Part shown: one piece after another, positions 130-17,919 of the stretch
Layout of the letters: the number at the start of each line of letters is the position of its first letter
Numbering within the stretch: position 1 is the first letter of the stretch
Assembly (NCBI RefSeq): GCF_003319115.1
Contig: NZ_QOHF01000012.1
Coordinates: 1 to 64,000 of the forward strand
Origin: Geodermatophilus sp. TF02-6
GTDB taxonomy: Bacteria; Actinomycetota; Actinomycetes; Mycobacteriales; Geodermatophilaceae
DNA: 64,000 nt
Reading direction: 5' to 3'
The notes under the pieces: model-generated
Databases searched by the model: none
Told to the model about the DNA's origin: nothing
The model's input: only the letters and a program-made list of their open reading frames with translations
Program-made: the position numbers and the translations under genes

Positions 130-1051
130 GAACGTGTTGAGTAAGGCTGCTGACACCGGCGGCCGGGTCGGCGAGGCTGAGGCATGGGCTCTTCCCCGGC
201 CTACCCCTCGGACCTGACCGATGCCCAGTGGGCGCTGATCGAGCCACTGGTGCCAGTACTCAGCACCCGTGGCCGCGGTACCCGCGGCGGACGCCCGCCC
301 AAGTACCCGCGGCGGCGCATCGTCGAGGCGATCTTGTACGTGGTGCGAACCAGCTGCTCGTGGCGGCAGCTGCCGCACGACTTCCCGCCGTGGACGACGG
401 TGTACTTCTACTTCCAGTCCTGGACCGCCGATGGCACCGTCGACCGCATCCACGACACGCTGCGGGATGCGGCCCGGGATGCCGCCGGCCGGGATCCGAT
501 GGCCTCGGCCGGCGCGATCGACTCCCAGTCGGTGCCCGGCGCGGCGACCGTGGGCACGGCCACCCGGGGCTACGACGCCGGCAAGAAGATCAACGGTCGC
601 AAGCGGCACCTGGTGGTCGACACCCTGGGCCTGCTCATCGTGGTACTGGTGACCGCGGCCAGCGTGCAAGACCGCGACGGCGGCATCCAGGTGTTGGACC
701 GGGCCAAGACGGTCATGCCCTCGCTGGCACTGACCTGGGCCGATGCCGCCTACAGCCGCCGCGTGCAGGAGTTCGCCGCCGGTGCGCTGGGCATCGTCGT
801 GCAGGTGGTGGCCAAGCTGGTCGGGCAGTCCGGGTTCGTGCCGCTGCCGCGGCGCTGGATGGTCGAGCGCACCCATGCCTGGATTACTGGTCACCGCCGG
901 CTGGCCCGGGACTACGAGCGCCGTCCCGAACACGCCGAGGCGATGATCAAGTGGGCCATGATCGGGCTGATGGCCCGTCGCCTCGCCCCTGCTCCCGGCC
1001 GCCGTCCGTGGCAACGAACGAAGGCAGCCTAAACCGTTTCTCAACACCTTG
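130..1051 (+). mobile_element. IS5-family insertion sequence
   Basis: The transposase gene at 184-1032 is bracketed by imperfect terminal inverted repeats: GAACGTGTTGAG at 130-141 on the left, and CTCAACACCTTG at 1040-1051, whose complement is CAAGGTGTTGAG, on the right. Directly outside both ends is TCA (127-129 and 1052-1054). That fits the TNA 3-bp target duplication known for the IS1031-like part of the IS5 family. The element lies just past the 3' end of the 11-gene glycan operon. The exact ends are inferred from the repeats. Confidence 0.75.
184..1032 (+). CDS. IS5-family DDE transposase
   Basis: A 282-residue DDE transposase that would move the surrounding element. The N-terminal part has the DLTDAQWALIEP opening and the RTSCSWRQLPHDFPPW stretch typical of the family's DUF4096-type DNA-binding region. 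The catalytic domain shows D113 in AIDSQSV, D187 in TWADAAYS and E228 in MVERTHAW, a complete DDE set. YDAGKKINGRKRHL is also characteristic. Length is normal and the frame is intact, so it may be active. It sits alone between the terminal repeats, with only 19 bases between its stop and the right end. Confidence 0.93.
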   Translation: MGSSPAYPSDLTDAQWALIEPLVPVLSTRGRGTRGGRPPKYPRRRIVEAILYVVRTSCSWRQLPHDFPPWTTVYFYFQSWTADGTVDRIHDTLRDAARDAAGRDPMASAGAIDSQSVPGAATVGTATRGYDAGKKINGRKRHLVVDTLGLLIVVLVTAASVQDRDGGIQVLDRAKTVMPSLALTWADAAYSRRVQEFAAGALGIVVQVVAKLVGQSGFVPLPRRWMVERTHAWITGHRRLARDYERRPEHAEAMIKWAMIGLMARRLAPAPGRRPWQRTKAA

Positions 1052-1119: not shown

Positions 1120-1887
1120 TCATCGGAGGGCCCCCCTCGCCCATCCCACCGCCGTCCACCGCAGTCGTGGCGGCGCGTGCACGCACCGGTCGGGCAGCCC
1201 GTGGCGCCGCAGACTCCGGCGACTCGCCGCGACGTCGTAGTCCAACTGCAGGAACTCGACGTTGCCGGCCGTGTCGTCGTAGACCGCGCAGCGGGCCCGG
1301 GGACGGCGCTCGCGCTCCCGGGACTGCCCCACGCTCCCGGGGTTGAGCAGGCGCGGAGCGCAGGACGCAGCGACCGTGCCCATGGTTGGGATCGTGCTCG
1401 CCACCGCGTCGAACAGCCACTGCCGGTGCGTGTGCCCGAGCACCAGCGTGTCCGTCCCCGGTGTCTCGGCGGGGAGGCGGCCGAGCAGCTCGCGAGCCCG
1501 GCGCTCCTCGGTGACGTACTCCTCGGGGCTGTCGAGCGATCCGTGGGTCATGAGCACGCGACCGGTGTGCAGCGTGGTGGGCAGGGTGTCGAGGAAGCTC
1601 CGGACGTCGGTGGACAGCAGCGACCGGTGCAGGTCGGCGGCGCGTCGGGCGAGGGCGTGGAAGCCGGTCGGCGGCAGGCGGTCGAGGACGAGGAGGTCGT
1701 GGTTGCCGAGAACACACCGCGCGCCGGCCTCGGCCAGCACGGTCACGCACTCGTTGGGCTGCCCGCCGTAGCCGACGAGGTCCCCGGCGACCAGTAGCTC
1801 CTCCACGCCCCGACGCTCCAGCGTGCCGAGTACCGCCTGGAGAGCCTGGAGGTTGGCATGGACGTCGGAGAGGAGGCCGAGACGCAT
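1120..1887 (-). CDS. Calcineurin-like metallophosphoesterase (YfcE/MJ0936 type)
   Basis: A 255-residue cytoplasmic metal-dependent phosphodiesterase or phosphatase. The metal-binding motifs are in order: D8-x-H10 (SDVH), GD36 in VAGDLVGYGG, GNHD at 61-64, H115 in MTHGS and GHTH at 151-154. This is the small single-domain class (Metallophos_2). The substrate cannot be read from the sequence. It is the last gene of the long minus-strand glycan operon, and its ATG shares one base with the stop of the ATP-grasp gene (TGATG). Its place suggests it removes phosphate from an intermediate or serves a signalling role. The C-terminal 40 residues are Arg/Trp-rich and look unstructured. Confidence 0.85.
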   Translation of the reverse strand: MRLGLLSDVHANLQALQAVLGTLERRGVEELLVAGDLVGYGGQPNECVTVLAEAGARCVLGNHDLLVLDRLPPTGFHALARRAADLHRSLLSTDVRSFLDTLPTTLHTGRVLMTHGSLDSPEEYVTEERRARELLGRLPAETPGTDTLVLGHTHRQWLFDAVASTIPTMGTVAASCAPRLLNPGSVGQSRERERRPRARCAVYDDTAGNVEFLQLDYDVAASRRSLRRHGLPDRCVHAPPRLRWTAVGWARGALR

Positions 1888-3101
1888 CAGCGATCAGGAT
1901 GGGTCCGCAGGAACCGGCGGAGTGCGCGGTGGGTCGGTGCGAGCACCTTGCCGGCGATCAAGGGCATCGGGTCGGACAGGTCGAGCGGCGACGTGGTCTC
2001 GCACCTGGCGACCCAGCGCAGCCAGCTCCACAGGCTCATCCCCTCCTCACGGGCGGCGAGACGGTCGCGTTCGACCCGGCACCACGCCACACCAGGGCGG
2101 GCCGTCGCCCTGGCCGGTCGGGGCAGTTCGAGGAGGTCCGCCCAGACGACGGCCGGGATGTTGACCCCCGCGGCGGCGCCCACGTGGTGCCACAGGTTGA
2201 ACCGCGGGTTCACCTCCAGCAGCCACAGCCGCCCGTCGGGATCGCGTTTGAAGTCCAGCTTGGCTACGCCGTGCAGGTCCAGCCGTGCCACGACCGCGCG
2301 ACCGAGCTCGGTGACGTCCGGCGCCCGGGTCGTCATGACGGCGGTCGAGTGGCCCAGCGCCTGCGGGTACGTGCGCAGCTTCCGCCCGGTGAACTCTGCG
2401 GCCGTGCCGCCGGAGGCGTCGACGTAGACGTGGTAGCTCTCGATGCACGTCTCCGGGCCCGGGACGGGCTCCTGCACGATCACCCGCGAGTGGGCCGCGG
2501 TCAGCCGCTCCACAAGGGCGGCGAGCTCCCGGCGGTCGTGGACGAGGGCGGCCTTGGCGGGGGTGGCCGCGTCCCAGGAGCGCTCCCGGCGCAGCGGCTT
2601 GACCAGCAGGGGGAAGCCCAGACGCTCGTCGAGCGTCGACCGGTCGAGGTCGAGGACCTGTCCTCGGGGCACCGGCAGGTCCATGTCGGCCGCGAGTTCC
2701 TGGAAGGCCGCCTTGTCGACCACCTTCTCGACCAGGTCGGCGTCGGGTACGACGAAGCGAAGCCCCGCTGACAACTCCTCGCGTCGACGGGAGACGAGCA
2801 GCAGGTCGTCGTCACCCTGGTAGAACAGGGCTGCCGGGGCCTCGTCGCCGCGTGAACCGGCCAGTAGCGCCGCGACCAACGCGTCCTCGTCGGGCCGGGG
2901 GTCGGACAGCCATGCAGAGACGTGCCGGGAGAACCGGTCGGCGGTCGTGGGCGGGCTGATCAAGGTGACGGGGACGTCCGCCGCGCGCAGCGGTAACGCA
3001 AGGTCGCGGTCCCCCATGACGAACGCCCGCCCGACACGTCGGCCCGTCGCCGTCGGCACCTGCGGTGCAGCCTCCGTCACAGGCTGAGGCACGATGGGCA
3101 T
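1887..3101 (-). CDS. ATP-grasp superfamily carboxylate-amine ligase-like protein
   Basis: About 404 residues. ATP-grasp enzymes activate a carboxylate as acyl phosphate and join it to an amine or thiol. Here the N-terminal lobe (to about 120) holds the MGDRDLALPLRAADV opening typical of D-aspartate-ligase or carbamoyl-phosphate-synthase-like proteins. The ATP-binding part has K168 in FPLLVKPL, E211 in VIVQEPVPG, D283 in VAKLDFK and the Mg-binding ELxVNPR-type LLEVNPRFN (295-302). ATG at 3101 lies 14 bases after the PIG-L stop. An in-frame GTG at 3119 overlapping that stop is an alternative start. Its neighbours suggest it attaches an amino acid or similar group to a glycan precursor. The substrate is unknown. 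Confidence 0.82.
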   Translation of the reverse strand: MPIVPQPVTEAAPQVPTATGRRVGRAFVMGDRDLALPLRAADVPVTLISPPTTADRFSRHVSAWLSDPRPDEDALVAALLAGSRGDEAPAALFYQGDDDLLLVSRRREELSAGLRFVVPDADLVEKVVDKAAFQELAADMDLPVPRGQVLDLDRSTLDERLGFPLLVKPLRRERSWDAATPAKAALVHDRRELAALVERLTAAHSRVIVQEPVPGPETCIESYHVYVDASGGTAAEFTGRKLRTYPQALGHSTAVMTTRAPDVTELGRAVVARLDLHGVAKLDFKRDPDGRLWLLEVNPRFNLWHHVGAAAGVNIPAVVWADLLELPRPARATARPGVAWCRVERDRLAAREEGMSLWSWLRWVARCETTSPLDLSDPMPLIAGKVLAPTHRALRRFLRTHPDR

Positions 3102-3115
3102 CCGGGAACTCGCTC

Positions 3116-3907
3116 TCACGAGGGCAGGAAGTAGGTCTCGGGAGTTGTGGGGATCTCGCCCGTCGGGAACAGCGCCTCGACCTGGGTGCGGTAGCCCTTG
3201 ATCAGGACCTGCTTGGTGTCGAGGTCCTGATCCCAGGACACGGGCCTGAGCCGGCGTGCTGCGAGGTAGCCGGCGTCCGGGTGGTCCCGCCGGTCGTAGG
3301 GGAAGTCGGAGTAGAGCACGGTGGGGCGGGGCTGCCGCTCGACGAGGGTACGGGCGATCAGGTGGTCGACGTGCCGGCCAACTGCGACCGGGCCGAGGAC
3401 CAGCGCCGCGTCGATGTGGTCGGTCAGCCCGCGCAGCTCGGCGTCGAGCCGGTGGACGAGTGTGCGGTCCCCCCAGGAGACCCGGCCCCTGGCGATGTCG
3501 AAGCGGAAGGTCGGGTAGCAGTGCACCACCTCGGGGACGACGCGGCCCAGCCGGGCCACGGCCGGTGGCGTCTTCCGGCGCCGGAAGAGGGCGTCGACGT
3601 GTCCCAGGTGGACGTGCTCGACGCCCAGCCCCGCCAGCACGTCGGCATCCTCGTGCCGCCGGGCCGCGTACAGTTCGGCGGCGTCCCCGACCGTGCACTG
3701 GGCGAGGAAGGCGCGGGCTGCCCTGGTGTGCGGCGGGGGTCCGGCCTCGGTGAAGAGGGTCGCCACGCAGACCGGGGTCCGCCCGGCCAGGCTGCTCAGC
3801 AACGCACCGCAGGAGAGGACGGCGTCGTCGAGGTGCGCGGACAGCACCAGGATCCCCCGGCCCCCGGCCACCGCCTCCTCCAGGCGCGCGGACAGCGGAT
3901 CGCTCAT
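3116..3907 (-). CDS. PIG-L family (LmbE-like) deacetylase
   Basis: A 263-residue zinc-dependent N-deacetylase, the family that acts on GlcNAc-type groups (GlcNAc-PI, GlcNAc-inositol, lipopolysaccharide sugars). The zinc motif is AHLDD at 24-28 (family form AHPDD, so Leu replaces Pro) with a second part, GRHVDH, near 180. YSDFPYD and the C-terminal GYRTQVEALFP are also typical. No signal peptide or membrane segment is seen, so it is cytosolic. Its ATG overlaps the flippase stop (ATGA). In this operon it probably removes acetyl from an aminosugar, freeing an amine for later acylation by the GNAT-like or ATP-grasp enzymes. That order is inference. Confidence 0.88.
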   Translation of the reverse strand: MSDPLSARLEEAVAGGRGILVLSAHLDDAVLSCGALLSSLAGRTPVCVATLFTEAGPPPHTRAARAFLAQCTVGDAAELYAARRHEDADVLAGLGVEHVHLGHVDALFRRRKTPPAVARLGRVVPEVVHCYPTFRFDIARGRVSWGDRTLVHRLDAELRGLTDHIDAALVLGPVAVGRHVDHLIARTLVERQPRPTVLYSDFPYDRRDHPDAGYLAARRLRPVSWDQDLDTKQVLIKGYRTQVEALFPTGEIPTTPETYFLPS

Positions 3908-5352
3908 CGGGTCTCCTGTTCGTCGGTCGGGACGTCATCGGTGCGCCGCAGCAGTCGGAGCACCGCTGCGCCGAGCAGCAAGATCGCGGCCACCCACAGG
4001 GGCGGCACGAAGCGGGCCAGCTCCAGGAGTGCCACCAGCACGCCGGTGAGGACCAGCGCGCGCAGCGCCCGGGCCGGCGTGCGCGCGGGCAGCAGCGGCG
4101 CGGCGGCCGCCCACAGCGCCCCCGCGGCGAGCAACGCCGCCAGCGCCACGCCCACGGCTAGACCCGGGACGTCGCCGACCCGCCAGCCCAGCAGCAGGCC
4201 GACGGGCATGAGGACGACCGCGGCCAGCAGTCCCACCTGGCACCGCCGGTACGCGCGCAGGCCCAGCAGCACGGAGGTGAACAGGGTGAGGGCGGCGTAG
4301 CCGACCCCTGCCGCGGCGAGCACCGGCAGCAGGCGGAGGGAGTCGGCGTAGCGCTCGGGGAAGACGAGGAGCACCAGGTCGCGGGGCACGGTGGCGACCA
4401 CGGCCGCGGCCGAGAGCGCGAGCACGGTGAACGAACGCATCGTCGTGGTGAGGATGTGGTCGGTGCGGGCCTGTCGGCTGCGCAGCAGGGGGAACGCCAC
4501 GGCGACCGAGCCGGCAGCCACGTAGACGGGCGCTTTCGCCAGGGTCGACAGCGCCTGGTAGCCGGCGCTCTCCGCGTCGTGGGTCGCGAGGGCCGCCACC
4601 AGCACCACGTCGGCGCCGATCAGCGCGTAGACGATCAGCTGGGTGAGGGCCATGTCCCCCGTCTCGGCCCAGCGTGCACGCTCGCGCAGCACCTCCGGGC
4701 GCCACTGCAGGTCCCGCCACAGCGCGCGGGGCGCGCCGAGCAGCACGACGAGCGAGCCGGCGACGAACCCGGTCAGCGCACCACCGGCTCCCCATCCGGC
4801 GAGCACCACGCCGACGGTCACGGAGATCCGGGTGATCACCTCCACCTCGAGCAGGACCGCGTTGCGGACGAACAGCAGCTCGCCGTGCAGCCAGCCCCAG
4901 AGCGGGCTGGCCAGGAACAGGACCAGCGCCGAGACGGCGACCGTCCCGACCACGGCCGTCCGCGCGAAGGTCGCCGTGACCAGCCCCGTCACCAGCGCGG
5001 CGAGCAGCCCGCCGGCGGCGGACACCGACCAGGCGAAGGCCATCCCCCGGCATCGTTCCTCCGACCGCCGCGGGTGGGTGCGGATGACGTGCGTGAGCGG
5101 CATCGGGACCAGCGCGGCGGCGAACACGCCGACGGTGCCCAGCAGCGTCGCGGCCGCGGCGTACTCGCTGTAGGCCGGCGCGGCGAGCAGATGGGCCAGC
5201 ACGAGGGCGCCGGCGTAGCTGATCGCGGCGACCAGGGCCATGGACGCCGACACCAGGGGGCCACGCGAGGAGACCAGGCGGCCGTCGGCAGGCGCCTGGC
5301 CGGGCAGGCCGCCCGGCGCGACGGCGCCGGCGGTCGGCGGGACGGTGCTCAC
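3904..5352 (-). CDS. Polysaccharide flippase (Wzx/MATE-like, MOP superfamily)
   Basis: About 482 residues and almost entirely hydrophobic, with roughly 12-14 predicted membrane segments. After a polar head of about 30 residues the first segment is in SMALVAAISYAGALVLAHLL. The layout matches lipid-linked oligosaccharide flippases, which move undecaprenyl-linked units across the membrane. The GTG start at 5352 overlaps the upstream GNAT stop (GTGA), and its own stop overlaps the PIG-L start (ATGA), so translation is coupled on both sides. A flippase inside the cluster argues that the product is exported. No polymerase (Wzy) is obvious in the operon, so the unit may be used singly. Confidence 0.85.
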   Translation of the reverse strand: MSTVPPTAGAVAPGGLPGQAPADGRLVSSRGPLVSASMALVAAISYAGALVLAHLLAAPAYSEYAAAATLLGTVGVFAAALVPMPLTHVIRTHPRRSEERCRGMAFAWSVSAAGGLLAALVTGLVTATFARTAVVGTVAVSALVLFLASPLWGWLHGELLFVRNAVLLEVEVITRISVTVGVVLAGWGAGGALTGFVAGSLVVLLGAPRALWRDLQWRPEVLRERARWAETGDMALTQLIVYALIGADVVLVAALATHDAESAGYQALSTLAKAPVYVAAGSVAVAFPLLRSRQARTDHILTTTMRSFTVLALSAAAVVATVPRDLVLLVFPERYADSLRLLPVLAAAGVGYAALTLFTSVLLGLRAYRRCQVGLLAAVVLMPVGLLLGWRVGDVPGLAVGVALAALLAAGALWAAAAPLLPARTPARALRALVLTGVLVALLELARFVPPLWVAAILLLGAAVLRLLRRTDDVPTDEQETR

Positions 5353-6464
5353 CGGCGCCGTCCCGCGGTGCGGAGGTGCCGGAGGGAGACGGCCCGGTCG
5401 AGGACCGACCGGAGGCGGTGTTCGGTGGCGGTCAGCGGGAGCCGCTCGAAGCGGAGTGCGTGGTACCGGACCGGAGCCGCTCCGAAGCCGGCCTTGAACC
5501 GCGCCACCCCCGAGCCGGGGTCGGACTCGCCGAGCTGGAATCGGAGGGCTCCCGACCGGCAGGCGGCCTCGATCGCCAGCGACTGCAGCAGCGCACCCGC
5601 GGAGGTCCGTCCGGCCAGCTCTTGGTCCATCGCCGACATCCAGAACCAGGCCTGGTGGCCGTGCTGCAGGGCCACGTACGCCGCGACCGGTTCGCCGTGC
5701 AGGTGCGCCGTCCAGCCGGTCACGGTGGCGCCGAGGACGGGCAGCGCGGAAGCCAGCTGACCGGCGCGGTCCCGTCGCCGCTCCACAAGGTGGGCGAGCC
5801 ACCGCGGTCTGCCGCCCTGCCGCGCCCAGCGGTCCACGGACCGGCGGTTGAGCTCGGCGAAGGTCTCGACGAGGCTGCTGTCGCGGACCTGGCGGACGTC
5901 GAGCGGCTGCTTCTCCGCGCGACGGACCTTCCTCCGCGCGTCCTGGCGGTACCGCTGCGCCCACACGTGGTCGAAGCCCCCTTCGAGGTCGAGGACGTGG
6001 CACAGGAACGGGACCCGCACGGCGCCGGCCGGCGCGGCCGCGTCCCAGGTGTTGGCGACCAGGGGGTCGGGGGCCAGCGTGGCCCGCATGGCGGGGCGCG
6101 CGGCCAGGTCGGCCAGCACCACCTCGGCCTCGGCCCCGGTGACCTGACCGCCGGCCACGAGCGGACCCCCGTAGCCGAAGCCGTACGGCATCGACTCCTC
6201 ACTGACCGGCACCCCCGCCGTGGTACGGGCCACCAGCGGTAGCAGCAGCCGGCAGCCGTCCGGGAACTCGTACAGCCGGCTGGCGTCGCCGTACCCCCGC
6301 GTGTGGCACAGCCAGTCGGTCCACTCTGGCGTCTGGGTGGGCAAGGTGTCCGGATCGGCGGACTGCAGCTCCCGCCACACGTCGCGCGGCGCGGGGGAGA
6401 TGACGCGAACACCGTCCGAGGTGTCCTGCCCCGAGCCCTTCGAGTGGCGGGTGGTCGTGGTCAT
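5349..6464 (-). CDS. FemAB/GNAT-like acyltransferase (paralogue 2)
   Basis: 371 residues with two GNAT-like halves, as in BioF2/FemAB-type proteins (Acetyltransf_6). Landmarks are PTQTPEWTDWLCHTRG near 45, MPYGFGYGGPLVAGG near 95, the basic block RQDARRKVRRAEKQ near 175, FAELNRRSVDRWARQ, HGEPVAAYVAL near 270 and ALLQSLAIEAA near 310. FemAB-type enzymes transfer amino acids or acyl groups onto peptidoglycan or glycan amines. It is a clear tandem duplicate of the next upstream gene: the same landmarks recur in the same order. ATGA/GTGA overlaps link it to both neighbours. The donor and acceptor are unknown. Confidence 0.82.
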   Translation of the reverse strand: MTTTTRHSKGSGQDTSDGVRVISPAPRDVWRELQSADPDTLPTQTPEWTDWLCHTRGYGDASRLYEFPDGCRLLLPLVARTTAGVPVSEESMPYGFGYGGPLVAGGQVTGAEAEVVLADLAARPAMRATLAPDPLVANTWDAAAPAGAVRVPFLCHVLDLEGGFDHVWAQRYRQDARRKVRRAEKQPLDVRQVRDSSLVETFAELNRRSVDRWARQGGRPRWLAHLVERRRDRAGQLASALPVLGATVTGWTAHLHGEPVAAYVALQHGHQAWFWMSAMDQELAGRTSAGALLQSLAIEAACRSGALRFQLGESDPGSGVARFKAGFGAAPVRYHALRFERLPLTATEHRLRSVLDRAVSLRHLRTAGRRR

Positions 6465-7558
6465 GAGCGGGTCTCCGAGGTGAGGTCGCGCCGGGCGGTG
6501 ATCATGGCATCGACGGTCGACCTGAGCCGACGGTCCGCGGCGGTCATGGGGAGCCGTTCCAGTCGCAGTGCTGCGTAGGGGACGGCTCTGGCCCCGAAGC
6601 GCTCCTTGAACGCCTCCACACCCGAGCCGCCGGCCGCCTCACCCATCAGGAACCAGCGAGCCCCGGCGGCGCAGGCGTGCTCGATGGCCAGGGACTGCAG
6701 CAGCGCGCCGGCGTCCGTCCGTCGGGCGAGCTCTTTGTCCATTGCCGACATCCAGGCGTAGGCGCGTGTGCCGAAGTGCAGCAGCACGTAGGCCGCCACC
6801 GGTTCACCGTGCAGGTGCGCCGTCCAGGACGTGAGAATGGAGGTCAGCGCCGTGACGGCGGAGGAGAGCTGACCGACGCGGTCGCGTCGACGCTCGACCA
6901 AGCGGGCCAGCCACAGTGGCTGGCCCCGCTGGAGTGCCCAGCGGTCCACGGAGCGGCGGTTCAGCTCGGCGAAGACGTCGACGAGGTCTGCACCGCTCCC
7001 CTGATGGACCTCGAGGGGCTGTCTGGTCGCACGGCGGATGTTCTTCCGAACGTCACTGCGATACCGCTCCTGCCAGACGCGGTCGAAGCCGCCCTCGAGA
7101 TCGAGGACGTGGGCCAGGTACGGGACTCGGATCGCACCTGGTGGCGCGGCTGCGGCCCAGATGTCCGCCTTCAGTGGGTCGGGGACCATCCCCACCCGCA
7201 GCAGGGGCCGTCGCCTCAGATCGGTCAGCATCGAGCGAGCTGAGGCATGCGTGATCTCGCCCCCGGCCACGAGCGGACCTCCGTAGCCCAAGCCGTAGGG
7301 CATCGACTCGGCGGTGATCGGCACACCGGCACGGTGCCAGGCCATGAGCGGCAGCAGGAGGCGGCGCCCGTCCGAGAACTCGTAGAGCCGGCTGGCGTCG
7401 GTCCAGCCGCGGGTGCGGCACACCCAGTCGGTCCACTCCGGCGTCTGGGTCGGCAGGGCATCGGGGTCGGCGGCCAGGAATTGTTGCCAGATGTCGCGTG
7501 GTGCTGGGGACACGACGTGGACGTCCTGTGTCGACCTCGTGGAGCAACGGGCGGTCAC
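6461..7558 (-). CDS. FemAB/GNAT-like acyltransferase (paralogue 1)
   Basis: 365 residues, starting at GTG 7558 that overlaps the glycosyltransferase stop (GTGA). Landmarks match the adjacent paralogue: SPAPRDIWQQFLAADPD, PTQTPEWTDWVCRTRG, MPYGLGYGGPLVAGG, KNIRRATRQPLEV, FAELNRRSVDRWALQ, HGEPVAAYVLL, AMDKELARRTDAGALLQSL and the closing ALRLERLPMTAADRRLRS. It is therefore a full-length copy, not a fragment. Differences cluster in the region after 300 (MGEAAGGSG versus LGESDPGSG), which could change the acceptor. Expected role: acylation or aminoacylation of an aminosugar on a lipid-linked precursor in the cytoplasm. Confidence 0.82.
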   Translation of the reverse strand: MTARCSTRSTQDVHVVSPAPRDIWQQFLAADPDALPTQTPEWTDWVCRTRGWTDASRLYEFSDGRRLLLPLMAWHRAGVPITAESMPYGLGYGGPLVAGGEITHASARSMLTDLRRRPLLRVGMVPDPLKADIWAAAAPPGAIRVPYLAHVLDLEGGFDRVWQERYRSDVRKNIRRATRQPLEVHQGSGADLVDVFAELNRRSVDRWALQRGQPLWLARLVERRRDRVGQLSSAVTALTSILTSWTAHLHGEPVAAYVLLHFGTRAYAWMSAMDKELARRTDAGALLQSLAIEHACAAGARWFLMGEAAGGSGVEAFKERFGARAVPYAALRLERLPMTAADRRLRSTVDAMITARRDLTSETRS

Positions 7559-8769
7559 GGGCGTGCATCCGAGAGGAGGGGACGTCCCCGTCGCGGTGAG
7601 GTCCCGGCTCGCGAGGCGGTCACGGACAAGCGGTAGACCTCCGCCTGTCGACGGGCGAGGACGTCCCAGTCGTAGCCGGCGGCGAAGGCCCGGCCGGCCG
7701 CCCCCATGGCCAGCATCAGGTCCCGGTCGGGGTGGAGCGCCGCCAGCTGCGTGGCGAGCGCGGCGACGTCGAACGGCGGGACCAGCCGGCCACAGGCGGG
7801 CGGCACCACCTCGCGCAGGCAGGGGATGTCGAAGGCCACGACCGGGGTCGCGGCGGCCAGCGCCTCGACGGCGACGATGCCGAAGGTCTCAGCGCGGGAG
7901 GGCACCACGACCAGCCGGCTGGAGGCGAGCAGACGGGCCTTGTCCGGGCCGCTGACCCAGCCGACGAAGCGCACCCGGGCGGCGACGCCCAGCCGTTCGG
8001 CGAGCTGCCGGACGCGGGCCTCGTCCGGGCCGCGGCCGGCGATGACCAGGTCGCCGTCCACCCTGTGGTGGACCTGCGCCCACGCCCGCAGCAGGAGGTC
8101 CAGCCCCTTGCCCTCCAGCTCGAGGCGGCCGATGCACAACACGTCGCGGCCCAGCTGCGCCGGCTCGGCGAACAGGCCGGGGTCGACGCCGTTGCCGATC
8201 ACCTGGACCGAGGCGCGCGGGTTCATCGCCGTCAACCGCTCGGCGGTCCCGTGCGACACCGCGACGAGCCGCCGGTGGGTGCGCACGGCCGCGCGCTCGA
8301 TGAGGTGGAACGGCAGCTTGTACTGGCGTGCCTTCTCCCGGGCGTGCAACCACTGGACCATGCCGACGACCGGCCGCCGGGTCCACAGCGGGACGGCCGC
8401 GCTGGAGAACGGCGGCAGGAAGTCCTCGACGACGAGGTCAGCCTCGGCGTGCCGCCGGACGGCGACCGGGAGCGCCGCCAGGTAGCCGAGCAGCCGGGTC
8501 AGCCGGTTGCGGCCGCGGCCGATGCCCACGTGTTCGTACCGCACGCCCTCGTAGACGCCGTCCACGCAGCCCGGGTAGCGGGTGGTGAGGACGGTGACGG
8601 CCATGCCCTCGGCGGCCAGCCGCCGGTCGATCTCCCGGGTCCGCACCGATCCGCCGCCCGAGCCCGGCATCAGCGGGTCCTCGAAGCCCAGGTGCAGCAC
8701 GCGCAGGGCCGCAGGGTGGGCGCGGGGGGTCCGGTGCGACGCGGGCGCGCCGGTGTCCACGCCGCTCAT
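7555..8769 (-). CDS. Glycosyltransferase family 4
   Basis: 404 residues, a GT-B retaining glycosyltransferase. The N-terminal Rossmann half carries LHLGFEDPLMPGSGGGSVRT, a glycine-rich donor-side loop. The C-terminal half has CIGRLELEGKGLDLLLRAWA and the family E-x7-E signature in SRAETFGIVAVEALAAATPVV. It starts at ATG 8769, overlapping the upstream stop by ATGA, and is followed by a GTGA overlap with the acyltransferase. It likely adds one hexose or uronic acid to the operon's lipid-linked glycan. Sugar specificity cannot be predicted. Confidence 0.9.
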   Translation of the reverse strand: MSGVDTGAPASHRTPRAHPAALRVLHLGFEDPLMPGSGGGSVRTREIDRRLAAEGMAVTVLTTRYPGCVDGVYEGVRYEHVGIGRGRNRLTRLLGYLAALPVAVRRHAEADLVVEDFLPPFSSAAVPLWTRRPVVGMVQWLHAREKARQYKLPFHLIERAAVRTHRRLVAVSHGTAERLTAMNPRASVQVIGNGVDPGLFAEPAQLGRDVLCIGRLELEGKGLDLLLRAWAQVHHRVDGDLVIAGRGPDEARVRQLAERLGVAARVRFVGWVSGPDKARLLASSRLVVVPSRAETFGIVAVEALAAATPVVAFDIPCLREVVPPACGRLVPPFDVAALATQLAALHPDRDLMLAMGAAGRAFAAGYDWDVLARRQAEVYRLSVTASRAGTSPRRGRPLLSDARP

Positions 8770-10229
8770 CCCTGCCGGCCCTCCCCGGTCGACGGGCGCG
8801 CCGGACGCCGTCGCCCCGTGCCGACCGTGCGGATCTGGTGGGCGTAGTCGTCGAGGCCGACCCCGGGCCGGGTGCCGAACAGGTCGTCCTCGAACGCCCA
8901 CATGAACAGGGCGAACCCGCACTCCCGGGCGTACCGCGGCGCGTGGACCATCTGCTCCTCCGGGCTGTCGGTCAGCTCGTTGCCGCCGGTCCGCGGGGTG
9001 TCCGGGGACCCGGGGTTCTCACCCATCACGTCCAGCCCGGCCCGGCGGGCGTTGGCGACCGTCCAGCGGACGGAGGACCACTGCTCCACGCCGGGCTCGG
9101 TGAGCAGGTCGCGGTCGGCGTCCCCCGGCTGGCAGGTGTCCTGGGGCGGGTCGAGCTCGCGGGCGGTCACCGCCGTCGCGTCGTCCACGCTGCTCGAGTC
9201 GGCGTACACCCCGCCCCAACCGGCGCGCTCGGTGCGCGCGAGGCTCTGCGCGATGTGCGGCAGCTGCTCGGGGTAGAACAGGCCCCCCTCCAGGCTGCCG
9301 TCGCGGTCGGCGGTGCCGTCCAGACGGGCGGCCAGGGCCGCCTCCAGGTCGGCGGGCAGCGCACCTCGGCCGGCCAGGGGGAAGTGGACGTCGCCCTCGT
9401 AGCCCTGGTCGCGCAGCGTCCGGACCACCCAGACGACGGCGTCGGCGACCGACTGCGAGTACCACCGGAACCACTGCCGGACCTGTTCGGTGCCCACCTC
9501 GGTACCGCGCCAGACCGGGGAGCCGGGGGTCCACCCGGGCAGGGGGGTGACCGCCGCCCCGTCGGCCAGGCCGACGCCGTTCTGAGCGGCCTCGTCGAAG
9601 GCCCAGAACGGGTTGTGACCCGAGGCCTCGGTGCCCGGGTAGCCCAGCTCGCCGTTGACGCCGGTGCCCACGCGGATCGCCGCGGCCCGCCCGAGGCCCA
9701 CGGCGCGGTCCAGCTCGGCGAGGTAGTCGGCGACGGCGTCCCTGACGGCCGCGCTGAAGACCACGTTCGGGACCTCGTCGGGACCGCGCTCGCCGTGCTG
9801 GTCGACGTACGAACCACCGGGCAGCTCGGCGACCCACCGCGGAGCCGAGTGCAGCCCCAGGGTGAGCACCACCCCGATGCCCGCCTGCCGGCACTGCTCG
9901 ATCTGGCGGCGCACGTGGCTGGCGTATCCCTCGTCGACCTCGCCGGCGACCGGCTCGAAGTGCTCCCAGGACAGCCCCAGCTCGGCGTAGCGCACGCCGG
10001 CCTCACTCAGCTCGGCGACCCGGTCGGGGTCGCACCGCGACCCCAGGACGCCGAAGGCGAGGCCGGGCACGTCCTGCTCCTGCATCCGGTCCTCCGGTTG
10101 TCGCGACACCAGCAGGACGCCGCCGACCGCGGCGGCGACGGTCAGGGCGAGGACCAGCAGCACCACGGGAGCCCGTCGACGGCGACGGCCCGGTGGCCGG
10201 CCCGTGCCCTCACCGCGTGCCACGGTCAC
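8766..10229 (-). CDS. Membrane-anchored TIM-barrel glycoside hydrolase-like protein
   Basis: About 487 residues. GTG at 10229 is preferred (GAGG a few bases upstream), giving a 20-base overlap with the GT39 gene. A basic stretch, GRRRRRAP, precedes one membrane segment (VVLLVLALTVAAAVGGVLLV). The rest lies outside the membrane. The body resembles GH42/GH14-like barrels: AGVRYAELGLSWEHFEP near the start, RVGTGVNGELGYPG as a possible acid/base site and DVMGENPGSPDTPRTGG as a possible nucleophile strand, then a Trp-rich end. It may trim, transfer or edit the exported glycan. A catalytically inactive glycan-binding role is also possible. Family assignment is by fold pattern only. Confidence 0.65.
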   Translation of the reverse strand: MTVARGEGTGRPPGRRRRRAPVVLLVLALTVAAAVGGVLLVSRQPEDRMQEQDVPGLAFGVLGSRCDPDRVAELSEAGVRYAELGLSWEHFEPVAGEVDEGYASHVRRQIEQCRQAGIGVVLTLGLHSAPRWVAELPGGSYVDQHGERGPDEVPNVVFSAAVRDAVADYLAELDRAVGLGRAAAIRVGTGVNGELGYPGTEASGHNPFWAFDEAAQNGVGLADGAAVTPLPGWTPGSPVWRGTEVGTEQVRQWFRWYSQSVADAVVWVVRTLRDQGYEGDVHFPLAGRGALPADLEAALAARLDGTADRDGSLEGGLFYPEQLPHIAQSLARTERAGWGGVYADSSSVDDATAVTARELDPPQDTCQPGDADRDLLTEPGVEQWSSVRWTVANARRAGLDVMGENPGSPDTPRTGGNELTDSPEEQMVHAPRYARECGFALFMWAFEDDLFGTRPGVGLDDYAHQIRTVGTGRRRPARPSTGEGRQG

Positions 10230-11856
10230 CTGCCTCGGGGACCGCTTCGCCGGCGGTGCCCGCGTCGACGGGGGGCGGGGGCGGCCCACCGACCCCGTCC
10301 GCGGCGGCACGGGCCAGGGCGTCCGGTGGCACGGACCACAGCACGGTCTGCCCGTTGGTCGGACCGTCGGCCCGGAACAGCGGCGTGCCGTTGGCCTCCA
10401 GCCAGTCCAGGAGCTCCGGCCGGGCCCGCGCGTAGCCCTGCTCGGTCGGCAGGCTCACGGTGAGCACGTACCGCGCCCCGTTGTCCTCCAGCTGCTGCGC
10501 GGTGGACCATGGGCCGAACCGGTCGTCGTCGCGGAAGGCGCGGATCGCCGTGTCGTTCGTGACGCCGACCCGGGCGTCGGGCGGGAGCTCGGCGGCTGCC
10601 CAGGCGCGGAAGCGCAGGAAGCCCCCGTCGTCGGTGGTCTCCAGCCGCAGGCCCGTGGTGGCCACGGCGGCGAGCAGGACCGACGCCAGGACGACGGTCA
10701 CCGTCCGCTGGGACGGCCGGCGCTCGACCACCTCGGCGGCGCAGACGGCCAGGGCGGTCACGCCGGCGACGACCATCGGGTAGCCGAAGTGCTCCTCGAG
10801 CGTGCCGAACAGCGCCAGAAAGGCCCCGATCACGCCCATGACCACGGCGGTCAGGCCGACGAGCCGGCGGTCCGGACGGTGGCTGGCGGCGGCGAGCAGC
10901 CCGGCCAACGGGCACAGCAACAGCAACAGGTAACTCGTGCCGTACCCCTGCGCCTGGTCGAGGAGCCGGTCGACCAGGCTGGGCGCTCCGGGGGCGTTGA
11001 AGCCGGTCGCCTGCTCCGCGCCCACCAGCCGCAGGAGGCCGTTCCCCTTGGCCGCGGCCCACAGCCCGAGGTCGCCGGCGAGCGACAGGAGGACCAGGTA
11101 CACCGCGTAGGGGGTCACGACCCCCAGCAGGACCGTCCCGGCCTCCCCGAGCCGCAGGGTCCGCCGCCAGACGACGGCCAGCAGCACCGGGACCACGGCG
11201 TAGACCGCGAACACGTCCTTGGTCAGGACGGCGTACCCGAGCAGGAGGCCGGCGAGGAACAGGCGGCCCTGCGCACGTCCCCGGTGCCGCCGGTCGAGGT
11301 GCCCGACGAGCAGGAGCAGACCGGCCAGGACCGCGGCGGCCGCAGGTGTCTCCAGGAAGACGCGGCTGTTGTTGCGCAGGACGAAGGGCTCGAACACCAG
11401 CACCAGCGCCGCCCACACCGCGGGCCAGGTGCCCGCCACGCGACGGACGAGCAGGAAGGCCAGCGCCACCGACAGCGACCCGAGGGCCGCGGTCAGCCAC
11501 CGCAGGTCGTAGACGAGGCTCATGCTGTCGGCGGTCTGCAGGTCGAGGAGCCGGATCACGGCGCCCTCGACGACGAAGAACCCCGGCGGGTGCAGGAAGA
11601 ACGGGCCGTCGGCGAGTGCGGGCAGCTCCCCCCGGCTGATCGAGGCGCCGAGGTCGGCGTAGTGCATCTCGTCAATCCACAGCTCGAAGCTCCGGGTGAG
11701 GCCGATCGAGCGCACCGCGAAGGCCAGCGCTGCCAGGGCGGCCGCCAGGAGCAGCGGGGCCGAGGCGCCCCCGCTGCTCCTCGCCCGGTGCCTCCCGTGG
11801 AGTGGACGGGCGCCCGGCTCCTCGACCGGGACGCGCGGCTGGTCGACGAGCGTCAT
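10210..11856 (-). CDS. Membrane glycosyltransferase, ArnT/PMT (GT39) type
   Basis: 548 residues with about 11 membrane segments. It is a GT-C transferase that uses polyprenyl-phosphate sugars on the outer face of the membrane. The first extracytoplasmic loop has the catalytic acidic pair in ELWIDEMHYADLG, as in PMT/ArnT proteins, followed by LADGPFFLHPPGFF. A soluble C-terminal domain of about 130 residues starts near TTGLRLETTDDGGF. ATG at 11856 overlaps the upstream stop (ATGA). The DPM1-like synthase two genes upstream would supply its polyprenyl-phosphate donor. That pairing suggests decoration of the glycan after export. Confidence 0.85.
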   Translation of the reverse strand: MTLVDQPRVPVEEPGARPLHGRHRARSSGGASAPLLLAAALAALAFAVRSIGLTRSFELWIDEMHYADLGASISRGELPALADGPFFLHPPGFFVVEGAVIRLLDLQTADSMSLVYDLRWLTAALGSLSVALAFLLVRRVAGTWPAVWAALVLVFEPFVLRNNSRVFLETPAAAAVLAGLLLLVGHLDRRHRGRAQGRLFLAGLLLGYAVLTKDVFAVYAVVPVLLAVVWRRTLRLGEAGTVLLGVVTPYAVYLVLLSLAGDLGLWAAAKGNGLLRLVGAEQATGFNAPGAPSLVDRLLDQAQGYGTSYLLLLLCPLAGLLAAASHRPDRRLVGLTAVVMGVIGAFLALFGTLEEHFGYPMVVAGVTALAVCAAEVVERRPSQRTVTVVLASVLLAAVATTGLRLETTDDGGFLRFRAWAAAELPPDARVGVTNDTAIRAFRDDDRFGPWSTAQQLEDNGARYVLTVSLPTEQGYARARPELLDWLEANGTPLFRADGPTNGQTVLWSVPPDALARAAADGVGGPPPPPVDAGTAGEAVPEAGDRGTR

Positions 11857-13307
11857 GCGCTGCGCCCCACGTCGAGGCACCTGTCGTCCCGGTCGGGTGC
11901 GGGTGGTGCCGCGGGGCCGGCGAGCAGGAGCCGCCGGTCGACCAGCCGCAGGTGCCGGTCCCGCACGCCGATCCGGTCGAGCACCCGTGCGGCGTCGAAC
12001 TCGTCGCAGCCGCTGAGCACGACCGCCGTCCGGTCCCCCCGGCAGACGACCTCGTCGGTGGACCGCAGCTCCTTGCGCACGTCGGCCTCGGGGGTGGGGA
12101 AGCCGGCCAGCACGGCCATGTCCGACCGCGCCGACCGTCGTTCGGCGGCCTGGCCGCCTTCCTTCGCCGCCATGTGCCGCATCTCCTCGAGGACGATCCC
12201 GGCGAGCAGATCGGCGCTGCGGTCCCAGGAGAAGCAGCCGGCCCAGGCGCGGCAGGTCGCGGCCATCTCCTCCGCGCGCTTGCGGTCGTCGAGGTACCCG
12301 ACGGCGCTGACCAGGGCAGACCCCAGCCGTCGCGGCTCGTCGACCAGCCAGCCGGTCTCGCCGTCCAGGACCGAGTCCCGGATGCCGGGTGCCTCCAGCG
12401 CCAGACACGGGACGCCCCAGGCTGCGGCCTCCATCACCGAGCACCCCCACCCCTCGGCGGCCGAGGTCGACGTGGTGAGCCACGCCCGGGAGAGCAGGTC
12501 GTCACGGGCCTCGTCGGACACGCGCCCGTGGAAGCGGACGGTCGACTGCAGTCCCAGCTCGTACGACAGGGCCTGGAGACGGGTGCGCTCGGGACCGTCG
12601 CCGGCGATCTCGACACGCAGTCCCGGGATCTGCTCTGCGGTCGTGGCCAGGTGGCCCAGGAGCAGCTCGACCCGCTTGTGCGGTACCAGCCTGCTGACCA
12701 CGACGATCATGGGCTCGTTAGCACGCTGCCCCTGGGACCTCCGCACCGGGACGGTCCCGTTGGGCACCACGAAGACCGGGCCCCGCAAGCCCAGCCGACG
12801 CCGTACCTCGGCGCGGGTCGACGTCGAGACGGCGGCGACGGGGCGGTCCCCGTACACCCGCCGGGCCACCGGTCCCTCCAGCCAGCGGCCGATGGCGGCC
12901 ACCGGGGCGGGGAACCGCGTCGCGAACTGGTCCTGGTGCACGTGGTGGACGACCTGCACCACGGGCACCTGCGCCCCCGCGAAGAGCGGCGCGAAGAACG
13001 GGATCCCGTTCTGGCAGTCGACGACGGCGTCGAAGTGTCCGCGAGCACGCAGGAGGCGCGCCGCCGTCCGGGCGTACACCGACAGCGGGCCACCGGCACG
13101 CAGGATGTGCATGCCGTCGAGCCGGTCCCGGGCGGCCTGGCCGGGCGCTCGCGCGGTCAGCCAGGTCACGTGGACCCCGGCCTGCACCCAGCGGGCGCCG
13201 ATCTCGTGGATGTACTGCTCGGCCCCGCCGGCGTGCGGGTGGCGGACGTCGCGCCAGTTGAGCACCAGGATGCGCGAGCCCCGCAGGTCCGCGGCCGTGC
13301 CGGTCAC
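11853..13307 (-). CDS. Glycosyltransferase family 4 with extra C-terminal region
   Basis: 484 residues. The opening, ILVLNWRDVRHPHAGGAEQY, is a classic GT4 donor-loop start. VVSRLVPHKRVELLLGHL and the E-x7-E region AAEGWGCSVMEAAAWGVPCL confirm the family. The glycosyltransferase fold ends near 370. About 100 further residues, rich in Arg and Asp (from RHMAAKEGGQAAERRS on), match nothing I know and may be a regulatory or interaction tail. GTG 13307 overlaps the GT2 stop (GTGA) and its own stop overlaps the GT39 start (ATGA). Confidence 0.87.
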   Translation of the reverse strand: MTGTAADLRGSRILVLNWRDVRHPHAGGAEQYIHEIGARWVQAGVHVTWLTARAPGQAARDRLDGMHILRAGGPLSVYARTAARLLRARGHFDAVVDCQNGIPFFAPLFAGAQVPVVQVVHHVHQDQFATRFPAPVAAIGRWLEGPVARRVYGDRPVAAVSTSTRAEVRRRLGLRGPVFVVPNGTVPVRRSQGQRANEPMIVVVSRLVPHKRVELLLGHLATTAEQIPGLRVEIAGDGPERTRLQALSYELGLQSTVRFHGRVSDEARDDLLSRAWLTTSTSAAEGWGCSVMEAAAWGVPCLALEAPGIRDSVLDGETGWLVDEPRRLGSALVSAVGYLDDRKRAEEMAATCRAWAGCFSWDRSADLLAGIVLEEMRHMAAKEGGQAAERRSARSDMAVLAGFPTPEADVRKELRSTDEVVCRGDRTAVVLSGCDEFDAARVLDRIGVRDRHLRLVDRRLLLAGPAAPPAPDRDDRCLDVGRSA

Positions 13308-14158
13308 GACGCACACCCGGTGGTCGAGCGCTGCATCCGGCGGACAGCGCTGAAACTGGCCAGCCCGTCCCGCCACGGCGAGAACGAGGACTCGTCGGCA
13401 TGGCTCCACGCCACGGGGATCTCCACGATGGCCACGCCGGCCCGCTGCAGCTGGCACAGGAGCTCGACGTCGAAGGCGAAGCCGGTGGTCCGGCAGGTGA
13501 CGAGGGCGTGCGTGACCGTGTGCCGCTCGAAGAACTTGAAGCCGCACTGGGTGTCGTCCACGCCCTTGACCAGGCTGCGCGCCATGAGGCGGAAGGCGGC
13601 ACCGCCCAACCGTCGGGCGGCCGGCTGGGCGTGGACGAACCGGGCGCCTGCGGTGTACCGCGACCCGATGACCGCCTGCGCACCGTCCTCCAGGTGCTCC
13701 ATCACGGTGGCGAGGGTCTCGACGGGGGTGGCGAGGTCGGCGTCGAAGAACCCCACGAACCGGGACCGGCTGCTCAGCAGGGCCCGACGGACGGCCGCGC
13801 CCTTGCCGGGTCGTGCGCAGCCCACGAGGTCGACGGGCACGCGTCCGTCGGTCCTGCGGGTGTGGGCTCGCACGACGTCGGCGGTCCCGTCGCAGCTGCC
13901 GTTGTCCACGACCACCACGCGGGAGGACCAGGGCTGTCGACGCAGGTACTCGACGGTGCACCAGAGGGTCTGGGGGAGGCGGGTCACCTCGTTGTACGCG
14001 GGGATCGCGACCTCGAGGTCGGCCACGGGACGCGAGTACGCAGGCATCCCCAGGGGGTGGTGCGGGCTCCGGACGGGCCGGACCCCGAGGGAGTGGATGA
14101 TCACGGGGCGGTCGGAGGCGGACCGGACGGCAGGTCCGGCGTGGACGGTGTTCCTCAT
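13304..14158 (-). CDS. GT2 polyprenyl-phosphate sugar synthase (DPM1/Alg5-like)
   Basis: 284 residues. The start is ATG 14158, with AAGGA nine bases upstream. An in-frame GTG at 14200 has no such site. GT-A features are VAIPAYNEVTRLPQTL, VVDNGSCDGT, the metal-binding FFDADLATP and VDDTQCGFKFF. The family transfers a sugar from a nucleotide donor to polyprenyl phosphate. No C-terminal membrane segments are present, so this is the soluble type. As first gene of the operon it would make the lipid-linked donor used by the GT39-type transferase encoded two genes downstream. Confidence 0.87.
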   Translation of the reverse strand: MRNTVHAGPAVRSASDRPVIIHSLGVRPVRSPHHPLGMPAYSRPVADLEVAIPAYNEVTRLPQTLWCTVEYLRRQPWSSRVVVVDNGSCDGTADVVRAHTRRTDGRVPVDLVGCARPGKGAAVRRALLSSRSRFVGFFDADLATPVETLATVMEHLEDGAQAVIGSRYTAGARFVHAQPAARRLGGAAFRLMARSLVKGVDDTQCGFKFFERHTVTHALVTCRTTGFAFDVELLCQLQRAGVAIVEIPVAWSHADESSFSPWRDGLASFSAVRRMQRSTTGCAS

Positions 14159-16866: not shown

Positions 16867-17919
16867 TCAGCCGGCCGTCCACTCCAGCAGCTCGCCCGCG
16901 GTCCAGCTGTTGACCACCCGCTCCACCGGGACGCCGCACTCGACGGCGCGCTCGCAGCCGTTGCCCTGCCAGTCCAGCTGACCGGGGGCGTGCGCGTCGG
17001 TGTCCACGGCGAACTCGCAGCCGGCGTCAACGGCGAGGGACAGCAGCCGCAGCGGCGGGTCGAGCCGCTCCGGCCGGCAGTTGATCTCGACGGCGGTGCC
17101 GTGCTCGACGCAGGCGGAGAACACCGCCTCGGCGTCGAAAGTGCTCTCCGGCCGCGGCCGCTGCCGGCGTCCCTCCCCCTGCTCGCGGGGGACGAGCAGC
17201 CGCCCGGTGCAGTGGCCGAGGACGTCGGTGTGCGGGTTTGCCACCGCGGCGAGCATCCGCCCGGTCATGGCCGCCGACTCCGCCCGCAGGTCGGAGTGGA
17301 CGCTGGCGACGACGACGTCGAGCCGGCCCAGCAGCTCGTCGGTCTGGTCCAGCGAGCCGTCGGTGTCGATGTCGCACTCGATGCCGGTGAGGATCCGGAA
17401 CGGCGCCAGCTCCTCGTTCAGCTCCGCGACGACGTCCAGCTGCCGCTCGAGCCTGGCCGCGCTGAGCCCGTTGGCCACCGTCAGCCGGGGGGAGTGGTCG
17501 GTGAGCGCCACGTAGTCGTGGCCCAGCCCGATCGCCGCCTCGGCCATCTCCCGGATGGGGCTGCCGCCGTCCGACCAGTCCGAGTGCACGTGCAGGTCGC
17601 CGCGCAGGTGGCTGCAGAACGCGGCGACGTCGTCGGCCAGCGGCACCAGCGAGCCTGCGGCCTCCTCGAGCCGGGCGAGGTAGTCGGGCACCTCGCCGGC
17701 GTGCGCCTGCACGATCGCCGCGCCGGTCTTGGGGCCGATGCCGCGCAGGTCGGTGAGGGTGCGGGTGCGGATCCGCCGGTCGAGCTCCTCCGGGCCGAGG
17801 GCGTCGACGACGGCGGCGGCGGTCCGGAAGGCCGCGACCCGGTGCGTGGGCTCGCGGGCGCGCTCCAGGAGGAAGGCGATCCTCCGGAGCGCGGCCGCGG
17901 GCGGGAGCGGATCGCTCAG
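16867..17919 (-). CDS. PHP-domain phosphoesterase with helix-hairpin-helix (PolX-like, no polymerase)
   Basis: About 350 residues. The N-terminal part (ALRRIAFLLERAREPTHRVAAFRTAA, then LRGIGPKTGAAIVQ) is the helix-hairpin-helix region found in family X polymerases and their stand-alone relatives. The C-terminal PHP domain has the metal ligands LRGDLHVHSDWSDG, VALTDHSP, GIECDID, VVASVHSD, HCTGRLL and VDTDAHAP. The palm/nucleotidyltransferase part is absent. No ATG, GTG or TTG is suitably placed. Similarity to relatives puts the N-terminus at CTG 17919, which overlaps the DoxX-like gene's stop and has AAGAAGG eight bases upstream, so the start is uncertain. A role as hydrolase or nuclease on DNA or phosphosugars is possible. 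Confidence 0.82.
   Translation of the reverse strand: MSDPLPPAAALRRIAFLLERAREPTHRVAAFRTAAAVVDALGPEELDRRIRTRTLTDLRGIGPKTGAAIVQAHAGEVPDYLARLEEAAGSLVPLADDVAAFCSHLRGDLHVHSDWSDGGSPIREMAEAAIGLGHDYVALTDHSPRLTVANGLSAARLERQLDVVAELNEELAPFRILTGIECDIDTDGSLDQTDELLGRLDVVVASVHSDLRAESAAMTGRMLAAVANPHTDVLGHCTGRLLVPREQGEGRRQRPRPESTFDAEAVFSACVEHGTAVEINCRPERLDPPLRLLSLAVDAGCEFAVDTDAHAPGQLDWQGNGCERAVECGVPVERVVNSWTAGELLEWTAG

Follow-up and report, generated by a model that had tools for sequence, protein, structure and literature searches.

A probable variable surface-glycan locus headed by a mucin-like protein gene in Geodermatophilus

The window analysed here, positions 1–64,000 of contig NZ_QOHF01000012.1 of Geodermatophilus sp. 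TF02-6, carries close to its first base a gene cluster that is probably one allele of a variable Geodermatophilus surface-glycan locus, in which an amino sugar would be deacetylated and amide-modified. GC content by codon position together with open reading frame (ORF) mapping defined eleven co-directional genes (g1–g11) on the minus strand, running from 14158 to 1120. Eight of the ten junctions are 4-bp overlaps and one is TGATG; the tenth, between g3 and g4, is a 43-bp gap if g4 begins at the GTG at 10166 and a 14-bp overlap if it begins at 10223, the start that retains an Arg-rich stretch ahead of the membrane anchor. The original prediction for this DNA had proposed eleven coupled genes, and the mapping bore this out, all junctions overlapping or nearly touching. 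Its domain calls were also right, Pfam giving GT2, GT4 twice, PMT, Acetyltransf_6/FemAB twice, PIG-L, ATP-grasp and metallophosphoesterase. The boundary that it had drawn at 14158 was wrong: the cluster begins one gene earlier, at about 16534, with a mucin-like gene (the tail-protein gene, after its C-terminal tail) that had been missed together with a conserved DoxX–PHP/HHH landmark. Below, L and G numbers label loci and genomes, G000 being the window's own genome. The genes of the cluster are these:

14312–16534, minus strand: cluster head, mucin-like Pro/Ala/Thr-rich secreted protein of about 740 amino acids, from translation and composition, with a signal-peptide-like start and the tail GDPGARPD
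13304–14158, minus strand: g1, GT2 of the polyprenyl-phosphate-sugar synthase type (Glycos_transf_2, 69.6 bits)
11853–13307, minus strand: g2, GT4 glycosyltransferase (Glycos_transf_1, 106.3 bits)
10210–11856, minus strand: g3, GT-C transferase of the PMT type (PMT domain PF02366, 46 bits against a cut-off of 22.7; nine hydrophobic segments; DE in an early loop)
8766–10223 (alternative start 10166), minus strand: g4, membrane-anchored TIM-barrel glycosidase-like protein (structure model and Foldseek; invariant Glu172 and Glu382)
7555–8769, minus strand: g5, GT4 glycosyltransferase (Glyco_trans_1_4, 115.5 bits)
6461–7558, minus strand: g6, FemAB-like GNAT acyltransferase (Acetyltransf_6, 53.5 bits; FemAB, 29.7 bits)
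5349–6464, minus strand: g7, FemAB-like GNAT acyltransferase, paralogue of g6 (Acetyltransf_6, 55.1 bits; FemAB, 26.2 bits)
3904–5352, minus strand: g8, probable flippase of the polysaccharide-exporter type (12 hydrophobic segments; the L142 counterpart matches Polysacc_synt)
3116–3907, minus strand: g9, PIG-L-type de-N-acetylase (PIG-L, 40.7 bits against a cut-off of 28.2)
1887–3119, minus strand: g10, ATP-grasp ligase (ATPgrasp_Ter, 32.7 bits against a cut-off of 29.1; Foldseek; in frame behind PIG-L in three relatives)
1120–1887, minus strand: g11, calcineurin-like metallophosphoesterase (Metallophos_2, 71.3 bits)

The TIM barrel was found in six of 112 Geodermatophilaceae genomes, the window's own included, and the core order GT2-GT4-PMT-TIM-GT4-FemAB-flippase-PIG-L is kept in L028, L029, L030, L052 and L053 at 59–84% identity. 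Since the order is kept at this identity in five other genomes, the cassette is more than a chance assembly, and the gene-order comparison (core in 6 of 112 genomes) confirmed the earlier expectation that these genes occur together in related genomes. A peptide-pattern search for the TIM barrel across genome contigs returned five loci, all from Geodermatophilaceae; such patterns miss distant forms, and L142 and L143 were missed in that way. In these two loci, which belong to another family, GT2-GT4-PMT-flippase-GT4-TIM stand in a row, accompanied by divergent PIG-L, GT4 and pyruvyltransferase genes. The core thus occurs in a second family without the modification genes, indicating that it reaches wider than they do. 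Within the cassettes the modification genes are exchangeable: FemAB copy number ranges from one to three among the relatives, and the ATP-grasp/phosphoesterase pair also varies, L052 and L053 having neither gene. None of ATP-grasp, phosphoesterase and additional FemAB copies is obligatory: the cassettes of G040 and G094, like the second-family core, lack them. Relatives of the ATP-grasp protein at E≤1e-15 occur in 17 of the 112 genomes, with 67–69% identity in four besides the window and weaker similarity in the rest, and a PIG-L protein profile at E≤1e-30 matched in seven of 348 genomes of the order, those of L142 and L143 and G022 among them. An apparently decayed cassette was seen in G022, where L144 (4834–6907) holds broken PIG-L and flippase pieces about 50–65% identical to those of the window.

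The link between deacetylase and ligase is closest in three relatives. In L028, L029 and L030, PIG-L and ATP-grasp form one ORF of 689, 660 and 676 amino acids, respectively, that is, in three of the four genomes having both in the cassette, and a Pfam scan detects both domains in the L028 frame. These fusions support the deacetylate-then-ligate step that had been predicted. The ATP-grasp/phosphoesterase pair was also found outside the cassette, in L031, L032, L033 and L034. In L031 its neighbours include genes for Bac_transf (a polyprenyl-phosphate sugar transferase), Acetyltransf_6 and Wzy_C; in L032 the locus also contains a tail-protein gene, two FemAB-like genes and genes for Gfo/Idh, a DegT aminotransferase and Bac_transf. 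Because the pair stands at other glycan loci near Acetyltransf_6 or FemAB-like genes, once near DegT, an amine-modifying role fits; PIG-L could supply the sugar amine in one locus and an aminotransferase in another, the same kind of ligase serving both. Such a shared ligase gives the best indirect support from which we infer ligation onto a sugar amine.

PIG-L de-N-acetylases carry the metal motifs (A/P)HxDD and HxxH, and in all six aligned sequences g9 and its relatives show HVDH together with AHLDD or PHLDD; the nearest solved relatives of g9 are glycopeptide-antibiotic deacetylases, Dbv21 and the teicoplanin deacetylase Orf2. In ATP-grasp enzymes metal is bound by the Glu and Asn of an LLExN motif, and E296 and N298 of g10 are invariant in eight of eight sequences. 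The g10 model, with a mean predicted local distance difference test (pLDDT) score of 68, matched PurK, L-amino acid ligase, PylC and Ddl in Foldseek, with query-length template-modelling (TM) scores up to 0.58, so that the earlier ATP-grasp call also stood after structure prediction. In g4, one N-terminal membrane segment precedes a modelled eight-stranded barrel (mean pLDDT 59) in which Glu172 follows strand 4 and Glu382 lies at the end of strand 7; neither residue varies among eight homologues. Glycosidases of clan GH-A are (beta/alpha)8 barrels with one Glu after strand 4 and another at the end of strand 7; in Foldseek, beta-amylases and beta-galactosidases ranked first for g4, at TM-scores below 0.5 and a root-mean-square deviation of about 10 Å. 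Neither g4 nor g8 matched a Pfam family above cut-off. The likely catalytic residues are kept in the TIM, PIG-L and ATP-grasp alignments. The two FemAB-like proteins, g6 and g7, are 63% identical; no relative was found among solved structures at E≤0.1, and the XrtA-type FemAB model TIGR03019, which belongs to the XrtA/PEP-CTERM polysaccharide system, gave 25.2 and 15.3 bits against a cut-off of 260.35. Similarity of g1 to the dolichyl-phosphate hexose transferase and PpgS models is weak and far below their cut-offs. Actinobacterial protein O-mannosyltransferases mannosylate secreted proteins and typically have an acidic DE motif in their first loop outside the cytoplasm. DE is present in all seven g3-type sequences long enough to include this loop (IDE five times, SDE and VDE once each), the L143 call being too short. 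In the Pfam scan g3 lacks the C-terminal PMT_4TMC domain (PF16192), and the single PMT_4TMC protein of the genome (53 bits) is encoded elsewhere, on contig C19; for these two reasons g3 was not assigned as a Pmt.

The gene at 16534–14312 lies directly upstream of g1 on the same strand, separated from it by 153 bp. We took the GTG at 16534 to be its start, since a ribosome-binding-like GGAGAGG stands with it. The predicted protein has a signal-peptide-like start (AFA-NE) and a long Pro/Ala/Thr-rich stretch, 69% of its mature part is Pro, Ala, Thr, Ser or Gly, and it matched no Pfam or NCBIfam family. An exact tail pattern was too strict and missed the window's own tail, so that a profile was built on the last 62 residues. 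At E≤1e-3 this profile matched 51 places in the 112 Geodermatophilaceae genomes (a few matches are partial or fall in short frames) and 32 of the 348 genomes of the order, 28 of these being Geodermatophilaceae and the four outside reaching E values of 6e-4 or worse. A signal-peptide-like segment, which had not been used for choosing, is present in 37 of 40 sequences chosen by their tails. Within these 40 tails, Pro at −2 is present in all, Gly at −5 in 37, Pro at −6 in 34 and Asp at −1 in 33. When codon positions were compared in ten tail-protein pairs, third positions changed most in all ten, only moderately so, and changed residues outnumbered silent codon changes in all ten.

Glycan genes often lie next to tail-protein genes. 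A tail-protein gene stands directly before GT2 in the window, L028 and L060; L053 retains the C-terminal part of a tail protein and L029 a 37-residue tail remnant near the contig end, and L052 begins within GT2. At 33 of 34 further tail-protein loci the following gene shares the strand; at 24 of the 34 it encodes a Bac_transf protein and at two a GT2. Thirteen whole Geodermatophilus genomes contain 49 Bac_transf places in all, fragments included, with one to eight in each, and we estimate that adjacency of a tail protein and Bac_transf by chance would be about 1 in 1000, assuming some 4,500 genes per genome. At ten loci of L100–L133, L122 among them, the following gene did not match Bac_transf; flagellin, GNAT, polysaccharide deacetylase and DoxX are among the families that the set shows once or twice. 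Another tail-protein gene of the window's own genome lies on contig C25, in L068 (about 1900–13400), and precedes GT2, GT2, polysaccharide deacetylase, tandem GT2, flippase-type and hexapeptide transferase genes and two genes without assignment.

Beyond the head gene lie the two landmark genes:

16867–17712, minus strand: PHP part of the PHP/HHH protein (present in 25 of 26 genus genomes)
17916–18464, minus strand: DoxX-family gene (DoxX, 27.5 bits against a cut-off of 23.6)

The DoxX-type gene adjoins the PHP/HHH gene in all 25 genus fragments, the window included. A fusion of PAP2 and diacylglycerol kinase, encoded at 18569–20005 on the minus strand of the window (478 amino acids), accompanies the landmark in 24 of the 25, the short contig of G052 lacking it; it is possibly a lipid-carrier recycling enzyme beside the glycan locus. 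What adjoins the landmark varies. Eleven fragments contain a tail protein and four contain Bac_transf (L150, L156, L158 and L166); of these four, three also hold a tail protein, and 13 fragments hold neither. Three fragments, the window, L168 (G062) and L169 (G058), have both tail protein and cassette behind the PHP/HHH gene; L158 has a tail protein there without the cassette. In L148, L152, L156, L162 and L166 the tail protein lies ahead of the DoxX-type gene, in L166 followed by Bac_transf, and in L157 and L164 it is kilobases away on the other strand. In L119 and at G059:C115:2607–2870 a Bac_transf remnant was observed directly behind the tail-protein gene and ahead of the landmark genes. 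We read this pattern as that of a variable surface-glycan locus.

At the other end of the cluster, an IS4/5-family transposase (DUF4096 and DDE; 184–1032, plus strand) lies between g11 and the contig start. The contig begins at the first base of the window, leaving the cluster about 1.1 kb from the assembly break, and its downstream end may therefore be incomplete. In L028, the position after the phosphoesterase holds another FemAB-like gene. A promoter and terminator scan gave no promoter-like site and four terminator-like sites, against 1.7 (standard deviation 1.3) in shuffled sequences; three of the four are on the opposite strand, and the only one on the operon strand lies inside g3.

The gene order and its conservation, the domain families, the PIG-L::ATP-grasp fusion, the exchangeable modification genes, the tail-protein family with its neighbourhood, and the landmark lead us to propose the following mechanism, in which each reaction, the order of reactions and the lipid carrier are predicted from these observations. 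On a lipid carrier, cytosolic GT4 enzymes would assemble a short glycan. PIG-L would then take an acetyl group off an amino sugar, freeing the amine, to which the ATP-grasp ligase would couple a carboxylic acid, probably an amino acid, and the FemAB-like acyltransferases may attach further acyl or aminoacyl groups. After the flippase has moved the unit to the outside, the PMT-type enzyme would add a sugar taken from the polyprenyl-phosphate-sugar that GT2 supplies, and the TIM-barrel glycosidase, anchored in the membrane, would trim or transfer. The secreted mucin-like head protein, if co-expressed with the cassette, could be an acceptor or matrix partner of the glycan; its position makes it a natural candidate acceptor.

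Several observations weigh against this proposal. At E≤1e-6 the 34 further tail-protein loci contained no cassette gene apart from weak matches to GT4 in four of them, indicating that tail proteins do not depend on the cassette. No tail protein is present in 14 of the 25 landmark fragments, and cassette and landmark lie on different contigs in G044 and G040. Neither FemAB, ATP-grasp, phosphoesterase nor a tail protein was detected with the core in L142 and L143, and in the window itself PIG-L and ATP-grasp are separate genes joined by a 4-base overlap. The structure models of g4 and g10 are mediocre. In addition, none of the Pfam matches in the cluster genes is to an initiating phosphoglycosyl transferase, a polymerase or a nucleotide-sugar family. 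The lack of a polymerase had been predicted correctly; the description of the pathway as complete was not supported, given the missing initiating and nucleotide-sugar enzymes and the several optional genes.

Among the alternatives, the one that survives best is a glycolipid or wall-linked decoration without protein acceptor, which we regard as possible, on balance unlikely. A GT4 would make an aminosugar glycolipid, PIG-L would deacetylate it, the ATP-grasp and FemAB-like enzymes would acylate it, and PMT and glycosidase would finish it outside, leaving the tail protein a mere neighbour. The set without polymerase or initiating transferase agrees with this, as do the resemblance of the GT4–PIG-L–ligase series to the logic of mycothiol and GPI assembly and weak GT4 similarity to the MshA and N-acetylglucosaminyl phosphatidylglycerol synthase models, both under cut-off; against it, a tail protein heads the cassette in all five genomes with upstream sequence, although in one no more than a remnant is left and in another the contig start truncates it. 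At the 34 other tail-protein loci there is no relative of g3 at E≤1e-6, a result that weighs down readings with a protein acceptor and weighs this one up. Dedicated protein glycosylation, with the tail protein as acceptor and the PMT-type enzyme placing the modified glycan on its Thr/Ser/Pro-rich stretch outside the cell, is distinctly unlikely. It has in its favour the composition and signal-peptide-like start of the protein encoded directly before the transferases, the DE motif of a PMT-family enzyme, the tail proteins preceding glycan genes at most of the 34 loci, and the analogy of serine-rich-repeat adhesins, which are glycosylated by neighbouring transferases. Besides the missing g3 relatives, the occurrence of the L142 and L143 core without a tail protein argues against it, as does g3 lacking the PMT_4TMC part that is found once elsewhere in the genome. 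We consider improbable the broader proposal that Geodermatophilaceae have a class of secreted mucin-like DPGxRPD-tailed proteins made with interchangeable glycan operons, the window being a dedicated glycoprotein system in which an amino sugar, its acetyl group removed by PIG-L and its amine amide-linked by ATP-grasp, is flipped and then transferred to the mucin-like protein on the outside by a PMT-type enzyme, and the tail a recognition or anchoring signal. A pathway to a soluble metabolite, akin to mycothiol or bacillithiol synthesis, is hardly credible: GT4, PIG-L and an amide-forming type of ligase are all present, but the best scores for the MshA, BshA and BshB1 equivalog models are far below cut-off (79.9 against 462.5, 76.6 against 273.7 and 16.4 against 182.5 bits), and the flippase, PMT and anchored glycosidase point outside the cell.

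The variable surface-glycan locus that we favour can be compared with several known systems. Capsule and exopolysaccharide loci have variable content between conserved landmark genes, and the cluster resembles them in its species-variable glycosyltransferases, flippase and modification genes beside such a landmark. It differs in having no initiating phosphoglycosyl transferase or Wzy match and in being headed by a mucin-like gene: Bac_transf is missing among the cluster genes, with two Bac_transf places elsewhere in the genome, no Wzy-type polymerase family matched among them, and as a candidate Wzx-type flippase there is g8, without a Pfam match and with 12 hydrophobic segments, whose L142 counterpart matches Polysacc_synt. 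Mycothiol and bacillithiol synthesis use a GT4, a PIG-L deacetylase and a ligase (MshC or BshC) acting on the freed amine, the same series as here, whereas the ligase of the cluster is of the ATP-grasp type and membrane and export genes are added. Glycosylphosphatidylinositol (GPI)-anchor assembly combines GT4, PIG-L, a polyprenyl-phosphate-sugar synthase and a GT-C transferase; since the set has no transamidase family and the tail protein no hydrophobic C-terminal signal, this is an analogy only. Streptococcal serine-rich-repeat glycoprotein loci encode a secreted low-complexity protein beside glycosyltransferases and an accessory Sec system. The adjoining of such a protein gene and glycosyltransferases is shared, whereas the protein ends here in a DPGxRPD tail, no LPXTG-like end was seen among the tails examined, and none of the twelve locus genes belongs to the accessory Sec (SecA2/SecY2) families. 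Actinobacterial protein O-mannosylation (PMC5882110, PMC12331936) proceeds via Ppm1 and Pmt. The cluster shares with it a GT2 of the polyprenyl-phosphate-sugar synthase type, a PMT-family transferase and a Pro/Thr-rich secreted protein, and differs by a g3 without PMT_4TMC and by its additional amine-modifying enzymes. Among the matches listed, literature searches gave no paper on the cluster, and the terms PIG-L, FemAB and Geodermatophil- do not occur in the main text of PMC12419801. Set beside these systems, the locus unites an in-frame PIG-L::ATP-grasp fusion in relatives, a species-variable glycan cluster at a conserved landmark, and a set of secreted proteins with a strict C-terminal tail whose genes often immediately precede one for a polyprenyl-phosphate sugar transferase. 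Should the tail proteins serve as acceptors or anchors of glycans, these actinobacteria would produce bacterial mucins along with their glycans, and the DPGxRPD tail offers a simple mutable handle for testing that role.

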